Below, piece by piece: positions 25,070 through 28,656 of a DNA stretch of 64,000 bases (position 1 is the stretch's first letter; each line of letters opens with the position of its first letter). The translations under genes and the position numbers were made by a program. The stretch lies in NCBI GenBank assembly GCA_017416145.1, contig JAFQDD010000023.1, positions 62,001 through 126,000 on the forward strand. The letters are read 5' to 3'. Source of the DNA: Spirochaetaceae bacterium (GTDB taxonomy: Bacteria; Spirochaetota; Spirochaetia; Treponematales; Treponemataceae). The notes beneath the pieces were generated by a model. It saw only the letters and a list, made by a program, of their open reading frames with translations, had not been told where the DNA came from and ran no database searches.

Positions 25070-25540
25070 GGGAGTATAGAAAAACACTTCTCCTAAAATG
25101 GCGTCGAAGTGTTTTTCTGTTAAGTTTGCGTTGCAAACTTACTTATTATCTGCTGTTTTTCACTGCGTTGCAAAACAGCGTTAAAATGTCAAATCGGAAA
25201 TTGATATTTCCTCATTGACTTTTTTTGGGAGTATAGAAAAACACTTCTCCTAAAATAGCGTCGAAGTGTTTTTCTGTTAAGTTTGCGTTGCAAACTTACT
25301 TATTATCTGCTGTTTTTCACTGTGTTGCAAAACAGCGTTAAAAAGTCAAATCGGAAATTGATATTTCCTCATTGACTTTTTTTGGGAGTATAGAAAAACA
25401 CTTCTCCTGAAATGGCGTCGAAGTGGTTTTCTGTTAAGTTTGCGTTGCAAACTTACTTATTATCTGCTGTTTTTCACTGCGTTGCAAAACAGCGTTAAAA
25501 TGTCAAATCGGAAATTGATATTTCCTCATTGACTTTTTTT
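25070..25540 (+). repeat. Three tandem 157-bp structured repeats
   Basis: Copies begin at GGGAGTATA at 25070, 25227 and 25384, and the same GGGAGTATA at 25541 is the ribosome-binding site of the PspC-like gene. The copies differ at only five positions. Each can fold into four hairpins: a 13-bp stem AGAAAAACACTTC/GAAGTGTTTTTCT, a 9-bp stem TAAGTTTGC/GCAAACTTA with a GTT loop, GCTGTTTT/AAAACAGC, and GTCAA..GGAAAT/ATTTCC..TTGAC. The stretch 25062-25551 has no plausible gene; it is filled by these repeats. Confidence 0.95.
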
Positions 25541-27492: not shown

Positions 27493-27527
27493 AAAAAAAA
27501 AGCCACACTTCCAAACTAGAAGGCGGC
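27493..27527 (-). terminator. His attenuator terminator hairpin
   Basis: Minus strand GCCGCCTTC (27519-27527) pairs with GAAGTGTGGC (27502-27511) with one bulged base, followed by a run of T. Its 5' arm can instead pair with AGAAGGTG at 27562-27569, giving an antiterminator. Confidence 0.85.
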
Positions 27528-27571
27528 CTCTTGTTGAATACTCAACTATAAATTTTCACAACACCTTCTGC

Positions 27572-27625
27572 TTATTTGCAATAATGAGAATGATGGTGAT
27601 GTAAGTGAAGTATTACTAAATTCAT
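27572..27625 (-). CDS. hisL: Histidine operon leader peptide
   Basis: A 17-codon frame, MNLVILHLHHHHSHYCK, with six histidines in eight residues. It sits between a promoter (TTGACA at 27657-27662, 17 bases, TAAATT at 27634-27639) and the attenuator terminator in front of hisG. Stalling of the ribosome on His codons would free AGAAGGTG to pair with CGCCTTCT and block the terminator. No Shine-Dalgarno is visible before the ATG and the promoter lies very close, so the leader may be translated from a near-leaderless transcript. The call is from direct reading and the classical his attenuation model. Confidence 0.88.
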   Translation of the reverse strand: MNLVILHLHHHHSHYCK

Positions 27626-27633
27626 TTAAATAT

Positions 27634-27662
27634 AATTTAACATTATATACTGCTTCTGTCAA
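27634..27662 (-). promoter_or_regulatory. Promoter of the his leader/hisGB operon
   Basis: TTGACA and TAAATT separated by 17 bases on the minus strand. An alternative -10, TATAAT, lies in the spacer. It diverges from the arginase promoter about 50 bases away. Confidence 0.6.
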
Positions 27663-27711
27663 CGATTTTTTCCTTTGTGTTTTTTTCCTTTGTCTCCTTT
27701 GTGTTTTTCCT

Positions 27712-27740
27712 TTGATACAAAATACAAAACATAGTATACT
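27712..27740 (+). promoter_or_regulatory. Promoter of the arginase gene
   Basis: TTGATA (27712-27717) and TATACT (27735-27740) are spaced exactly 17 bases. The ATG at 27748 begins seven bases after the -10, so the transcript would start at or next to the start codon. Confidence 0.7.
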
Positions 27741-27747
27741 AAAACCT

Positions 27748-28656
27748 ATGAACATTAACGTATTTGAAATGCCACTAGATTTGGGAGCCAGTCGTCACGG
27801 TTCTGATATGGGACCATCCGCAATACGCCTAGCTGGACTCAAAGAAAAACTTGCAGAACTAGGACACACCATCACAAAATCCCAATGTCCAATGGAACAA
27901 CATCCCCAAGAATACGAAGACCCAGGCAATCCAAAAGCAAAATATCTTCCAATTATTACAAAAGCCTGTGAACAATTAGCAGAAAAAGTAGAAGAATCCG
28001 CATTAAACCAAAACTTTCCAATAATTCTAGGAGGCGACCATTCCATAGTTCTAGGTTCCCTTGCAGGAATGTCAGCCGCCTGTAAAAAACTTGGAAAAAC
28101 CCTAGGAGTTTTGTACGTAGATGCCCACGGAGATTTTAACACCTGCGAAACTACCCTATCAGGAAATATTCACGGTATGTGCTTATCAGGCTCTTGCGGT
28201 TACGGCATCCCAGAGCTAACAAATCTATATTTCCAAGGAGCAAAAGTCGACCCAAAAAACGTATGTTACGTTGGACTTCGGGACATAGACCCAAAAGAAA
28301 AGCTCCTTATGAAAGAAGCCGGGGTTACAGCCTACACCATGAGCCACATTGACCGCACAGGCTTTCATCACATTATGGAACAAGTAAAAGATTTTTTCAA
28401 AAACAAAGTTGATTACATACACATAAGCTTTGATATGGACTGTATCGACCCACAATTTGCTCCAGGAGTTGGTATCCAAATACCAGGCGGTCTAAATTAC
28501 CGAGAAGCCCTTCTTCTCATGGAAGAAATGTCAGAAACAAATATGGTAAAATCCTGCGACATCGTAGAAGTAAACCCAGTATTAGATTTACGAAATCAAA
28601 CCGCCACAATGGCCGTAAAACTTCTAGCCCGATTATTAGGAGAAAAACTTTTTTAA
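27748..28656 (+). CDS. rocF: Arginase
   Basis: 302 aa from the ATG at 27748; the frame is open to 27712 via TTG, but that stretch is the promoter. The binuclear manganese ligands are all present: H98 (GGDHS), D125, H127 and D129 (DAHGDF), D229 and D231 (SFDMDCIDP). The GNIHGM segment favours arginase over agmatinase. The enzyme hydrolyses arginine to ornithine and urea. No Shine-Dalgarno is found and the -10 ends seven bases before the ATG, suggesting leaderless translation. It stands alone, divergent from the his operon. Confidence 0.92.
   Translation: MNINVFEMPLDLGASRHGSDMGPSAIRLAGLKEKLAELGHTITKSQCPMEQHPQEYEDPGNPKAKYLPIITKACEQLAEKVEESALNQNFPIILGGDHSIVLGSLAGMSAACKKLGKTLGVLYVDAHGDFNTCETTLSGNIHGMCLSGSCGYGIPELTNLYFQGAKVDPKNVCYVGLRDIDPKEKLLMKEAGVTAYTMSHIDRTGFHHIMEQVKDFFKNKVDYIHISFDMDCIDPQFAPGVGIQIPGGLNYREALLLMEEMSETNMVKSCDIVEVNPVLDLRNQTATMAVKLLARLLGEKLF

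Follow-up and report, generated by a model that had tools for sequence, protein, structure and literature searches.

An element upstream of the hisG-hisB operon of a gut spirochaete (Spirochaetaceae bacterium) is very probably a ribosome-mediated transcription attenuator of this operon, working like the classical attenuator. We analysed a stretch of 64 kb from this genome (the window, to which all coordinates refer) and located at 27493-27662, on the minus strand and upstream of hisG-hisB, all the parts that an earlier note had claimed for this place. That description was accurate, but it lacked the strand and overlooked the start position of the leader ORF, i.e. the leaderless geometry; its reading as a classical His attenuator is supported by conservation, covariation, a swap test and folding with defined ribosome positions. 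Promoter-like site, ORF, alternative arms, terminator and gene order, as well as conservation and covariation, can be read from the sequences themselves, and from them we predict a transcription start site, leaderless initiation and a response to histidine. Comparison with other genomes further suggests that the hisG element is one member of a predicted leaderless attenuator family in Spirochaetota.

Architecture and predicted alternative folds of the element

The element begins with a sigma-70-like promoter upstream of the leader ORF. It consists of TTGACA, a 17-nt spacer and TG-TAAATT (27662-27634, minus strand, like all features of the element): the -35 hexamer lies at 27662-27657, and its TTGAC is conserved in 7 of 7 seed leaders; the -10 hexamer TAAATT, with TG before it, lies at 27639-27634 and ends 8 nt before the leader ATG. 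The leader ORF (27625-27572; ATG at 27625, stop codon TAA at 27574-27572) encodes the 17-residue peptide MNLVILHLHHHHSHYCK with the six His noticed earlier, at residues 7, 9, 10, 11, 12 and 14. Six His in 17 codons, in an ORF between a promoter and hisG, represent the leader-codon enrichment of an attenuator. Segment 1 (TTCAC TTACAT CACC, 27609-27595) lies inside the His codons and would pair with segment 2 if the ribosome is absent. Segment 2 (AGAAGGTGTTGTGAA, 27569-27555) starts 2 nt past the leader stop; its part 27569-27562 (AGAAGGTG) is the antiterminator arm, and 27565-27555 pairs with segment 1. In the fold, segments 2 and 3 are separated by a small hairpin (GTTGAGTATTCAAC, 27546-27533); several relatives have a hairpin in this position, and G271 has none. 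Segment 3 (CGCCTTCT, 27525-27518) is the partner of AGAAGGTG and also lies within the 5' arm of the terminator, a hairpin at 27532-27497 (-17.7 kcal/mol according to folding programs) with a run of nine T at its end (27501-27493). Leader ORF and hisG are thus separated by an intrinsic terminator (27532-27493) made, as proposed, from the shared CGCCTTCT arm. It is found by folding programs but was missed by a strict consensus terminator scan; the probable cause of the miss is its bulged stem, which continues into the T-run.

The genes of the operon after the leader are only hisG (27455-26583, minus strand; TIGR00070, TIGR03455), the first structural gene, with an SD-like AAAGGAG before it, and hisB (26582-25962, minus strand), which starts directly after the hisG stop. 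The element sits between hisG and a divergent arginase gene (27751-28656, plus strand). Beside the arginase gene, just upstream of the attenuator promoter, a 22-bp repeat (TCCTTTGTGTTTTTTCCTTTGTC, 27671-27714) occurs in about two copies. A TD-1 RNA (RF03155, 67.7 bits, above gathering) was found at 25268-25387 on the plus strand, between hisB and a LiaG-like gene, with no long plus-strand ORF directly after it.

The whole leader has a predicted minimum-energy fold of -37.5 kcal/mol (z = -2.9; 1 of 200 shuffles as low), which includes the alternative 1:2 stem that the earlier note had drawn between TTCAC..CACC and GGTG..GTGAA. We then folded the RNA beginning at the ribosome's 3' edge, taken to lie 13 nt beyond the first nucleotide of the A-site codon. 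Stalling at His codon 7 or 14 was predicted to yield the antiterminator (-16.3 and -16.2 kcal/mol, respectively) before segment 4 exists. Its outer stem is the 8-bp helix AGAAGGTG/CGCCTTCT (27569-27562 with 27525-27518), i.e. the claimed pairing of a segment after the ORF with the terminator arm. A ribosome at the stop codon is predicted to cover exactly AGAAGGTG and to leave the terminator (-17.7 kcal/mol; -22.4 kcal/mol with other hairpins). Through the shared arm, antiterminator and terminator exclude each other, as in an attenuator, although individual members of the family vary. Antiterminator-type pairing on stalling and the terminator at the stop codon are also predicted for 9 of 9 relatives from three genera with differing arm sequences.

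Swapping arms between genera in a set of 86 leaders weakened both pairings, from -16.3 to -13.8 kcal/mol for the 1:2 arms (p = 1e-5) and from -10.2 to -9.0 kcal/mol for the 2:3 arms (p = 0.004); for the His leaders only, the 2:3 values are -12.5 (own) and -10.4 kcal/mol (swapped; p = 0.0005). The shuffle test was weaker, with a mean z of -1.0 for 1:2 and -0.5 for 2:3: against shuffled segment 2, 2:3 was not better in every one of the 86 leaders (window z -2.1), which does not uphold strong 2:3 pairing in every member. Perhaps this weakness arises because terminator arms are GC-rich and the segment limits crude. We therefore base the pairing claim on the swap test together with the architecture. 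In an alignment of 33 leaders that was fitted to the structure, 13 of 16 pairs of the terminator stem show changes on both sides, and the covariation score of this structure-fitted alignment is 0.494, compared to 0.231 in shuffled (0 of 500) and at most 0.18 in slid versions.

Conservation, predicted start and evolution of the hisG leader

By itself, a His-rich short ORF says little, since the window contains three ORFs of 8-40 codons with at least six His (0.15 expected in shuffled windows). We therefore rely on conservation. HisG was searched in seven genomes of the genus, six of which have hisG, and a His-run ORF precedes the gene in 6 of these 6; these ORFs were reached by way of hisG, not by searching for the leader. 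The congener peptides are MNLVILHLHHHHSHYCK, MNLVLFHAHHHYSHWVSF, MNLVLFHAHHHYSHGKSA, MSLVIMHAHHHHSHEVSQ, MNLVHLHAHHHHSHHEAIR and MTSVRLHAHHHHSHHKGR, and one g20 genome has MKFSVHHLHHHFLNFSA; each of these seven leaders has a promoter-like site in front and a terminator behind. A search for other leader peptides in treponemes, as the earlier note had advised, yielded hisG leaders in six other genera of the family. In total, nearly 50 genomes carry one according to the covariance models described below: congeners, these six genera and three other families (f2, f3 and f12). A gene-first search gave three further leaders in g3 and g13. Chance is ruled out by the conservation of the arrangement in the six congeners with hisG and beyond. 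About 75 other hisG loci fetched by similarity, mostly from the Treponema bryantii group, showed no comparable ORF; as many bryantii-group loci with very similar HisG lack it, the leader is dispensable for hisG. Searching the family with a degenerate His-run pattern was uninformative, as the matches (160 of 274 genomes) were mostly apparent genes for His-rich proteins.

Bacterial transcription starts ~7 nt after the -10 box. In the seven seed leaders, the end of this box lies 6-9 nt before the leader ATG, and the three gene-first leaders of g3 and g13 have the same geometry: they share TTGAC, 15-18 nt, a -10-like box and then 6-9 nt to the ATG, with no Shine-Dalgarno (SD) sequence seen. Because of this short distance, we predict that the leader mRNA is leaderless, with its 5' end at or within ~3 nt of the ATG; with such a start, an SD sequence cannot be part of the leader transcript. 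Promoter-like sites also lie directly before the ATG of ordinary genes in the window's genome (L188, L190, L193, L195, L199), and end a few nt before the ATG of hisG in relatives without leader (L283-L285, L290), a sign that many mRNAs of these treponemes may be leaderless. In Leptospira interrogans, leaderless mRNAs are common, and ~440 mRNAs have a 5' UTR of <10 nt (PMC5243855).

Within the family, hisG leaders are present in g1, g3, g5, g7, g13, g18 and g20; in the genomes looked at from g2, g6, g8, g10, g12, g16, g17 and g19 no hisG leader was found. In the HisG tree, the HisG of the window falls into a distinct, well-supported clade that spans g1, g12, g17 and g20. Leader and HisG similarities disagree. 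G271 shares 86% identity with a g20 relative in the leader but only 61% in HisG, and with the window 74% in the leader but 84% in HisG; the leaders of the window and of G003 are 80% identical (HisGs 64%). Such mismatches are found at L150 (G271) and L147 (G000). In view of this disagreement we rejected a joint transfer of leader and gene; most simply, hisG seems to have been exchanged in g1 and g20 genomes while the leader above it was kept. Because the distribution is patchy, with leaders in some genera, absent from close ones and in places above a hisG that seems to be a replacement, their gain, loss and exchange can be traced.

Leaders for other amino acids in Spirochaetota

Spirochaete genomes were searched with two covariance models, R1 (seven seeds) and R2 (33 leaders), and matches were counted as leaders if they had a terminator and an ATG at a distance of 35-43 nt from the first TTGACA base; the constancy of the promoter-ATG spacing among these matches is partly by construction, because both models contain it. 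Downstream genes were confirmed with NCBIfam for representatives and otherwise identified from their sequences. Besides the hisG leaders, we found leuA leaders with Leu runs in ~30 genomes (e.g. MKTLSLLLLFDFLSK), ilvB leaders with Val/Ile runs in f1 and Ile runs in f4 (e.g. MAVKAGIGVIIISSIIIIPSGEKMEE), ilvC leaders with Ile/Val codons, leaders with Ile runs before the citramalate synthase gene cimA (f5, f7 and f11), and leaders with Phe runs before a pheA-type prephenate dehydratase or a chorismate-mutase-like gene. The codon type of the leader thus changes with the pathway, which argues against chance ORFs. Only the hisG leader turned up in the genome of the window itself; the next matches (E ~0.04) are not leaders. 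Weak R2 matches at L257, L313, L315-L317, L319 and L320 were judged false, as they lack a cognate codon run or lie in a gene or tRNA.

Two further codon types were less expected. Four f3 genomes (L251, L262, L314, L318) have SLAAAAAI leaders (..NSISLAAAAAIPEDRG) with a terminator before an aminotransferase gene (NF005334), whose product has AlaA as its closest solved sequence; these may be alanine-sensing leader-peptide attenuators, predicted to be leaderless. In five genomes, including that of a congener (L256, L311, L312, L321, L322), Thr-run leaders (e.g. MKFFVIETTYTTVSTTVTTTTGIG..) precede a SAM methyltransferase gene, which does not obviously belong to a threonine pathway. In G002, a GNAT-like gene comes next and ABC-transporter genes are located upstream. 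We know of no Ala or Thr specificity in leader-peptide attenuation. We regard it as an evenly balanced question whether Spirochaetota use one leaderless attenuator design for His, Leu, Ile/Val and Phe and also for Ala and Thr, with the leaders kept and the genes below replaceable.

Predicted mechanism, alternatives and known systems

In the proposed mechanism, RNA polymerase would start at or at most ~3 nt from the leader ATG, and a ribosome would load on the predicted leaderless mRNA and read the His codons. With plentiful charged His-tRNA, the ribosome would reach the stop codon and cover segment 2, so that 3:4 pairs and transcription ends at the U-run. With scarce charged His-tRNA, it would stall at a His codon, breaking 1:2 and freeing segment 2 for segment 3; the paired 2:3 would leave no terminator, and hisGB would be transcribed. 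If there is no translation, 1:2 and 3:4 would form and transcription would end.

The element could also be a real attenuator with a transcription start further upstream and an ordinary 5' UTR, a variant compatible with attenuation. A TATAAT at 27647-27642 could serve as a -10 box, giving a UTR of ~10 nt, but it has no good -35 box, and the spacing of TTGAC, -10-like box and ATG recurs in the gene-first leaders, in which no SD was seen; we consider this variant improbable. An action of the leader ORF on hisG translation or by reinitiation, instead of on termination, is very unlikely. Short leader genes in Spirochaetales are indeed statistically linked with reinitiation, with a leader stop ~10 nt from the gene (PMC4833913), but here >110 nt separate the leader stop and the hisG ATG, this interval holds a strong hairpin and the nine-T run, and in relatives the distance from terminator to gene varies widely while the terminator stays.

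That the terminator is constitutive, or part of a small RNA, and the His codons coincidental could be argued from the other His-rich short ORFs in the window; however, several families conserve the His-run ORF together with its start position and the terminator, and the codon type shifts with the downstream pathway, which makes coincidence extremely unlikely. A histidine T-box, or another translation-independent riboswitch that binds tRNA or a ligand, is hardly conceivable: his genes are under T-box control in other bacteria, according to passages of PMC9413887, but neither the T-box models nor the His_leader model (RF00514) gave a match, whether in the window at the gathering cut-off or, with E allowed up to 10, in the region, and ORF and segment 2 occupy most of the space before the terminator. 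Rfam matches at a permissive threshold were dismissed as chance. Translation-coupled attenuation remains our preferred reading.

Leader-peptide attenuation, familiar from textbooks, has been studied in Proteobacteria, Actinobacteria and some Firmicutes, and for his operons it is classical in enterobacteria. With the enterobacterial his attenuator (hisL, RF00514) the element shares a leader with His codons, alternative antiterminator and terminator, hisG as first gene and the same logic. It differs in peptide and arms, the lack of an SD sequence, the predicted leaderless start, its occurrence in Spirochaetota and the restriction of the operon to hisG-hisB; it is not a member of RF00514. The earlier note placed His leader attenuation mainly in Proteobacteria and T-boxes in Firmicutes, a view that is slightly dated: passages of PMC9413887 propose His leader-peptide attenuators for the Bacillus cereus group, Peptostreptococcaceae/C. 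difficile and Erysipelotrichales, and passages of PMC2965389 for hisS/hisZ in bacilli. These combine, outside Proteobacteria, a His-run peptide with terminator and antiterminator as the present element does, but belong to another phylum, and the passages describe no leaderless start for them.

Two other leaders have the mode that is predicted for the element. The Corynebacterium glutamicum ilvBNC leader (ilvL) shows codon-dependent transcription attenuation and has no ribosome-binding site, and its ORF begins one nt from the transcription start (passages of PMC11857589, citing Morbach 2000); amino acids, gene and phylum are different, and we claim no sequence relationship. Sinorhizobium meliloti trpL likewise has a leaderless leader-peptide mRNA before an amino-acid operon (PMC7298713), but it concerns Trp and alphaproteobacteria, and its peptide peTrpL has trans functions that the present leader is not known to share. 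In the literature on spirochaetes and Treponema we found leader-peptide attenuation unreported; the bacteria-wide survey by Lopatovskaya, Seliverstov & Lyubetsky (2010), outside our coverage, may hold spirochaete cases. If true, a spirochaete family with the ATG at the mRNA 5' end would mean attenuation that does not need SD initiation. It would also close a gap in what is known of how an entire phylum regulates amino-acid synthesis, and supply a collection of short ORFs likely to be overlooked by genome annotation; Ala and Thr specificities would widen the range of leader-peptide sensing. The leaderless ilvL/trpL type is a mode and not one homologous family. Taken together, the mechanism is already known, since his leader-peptide attenuation is a classical system of enterobacteria, with later proposals for some Firmicutes, whereas its leaderless form in Spirochaetota and the breadth of the family are apparently new.
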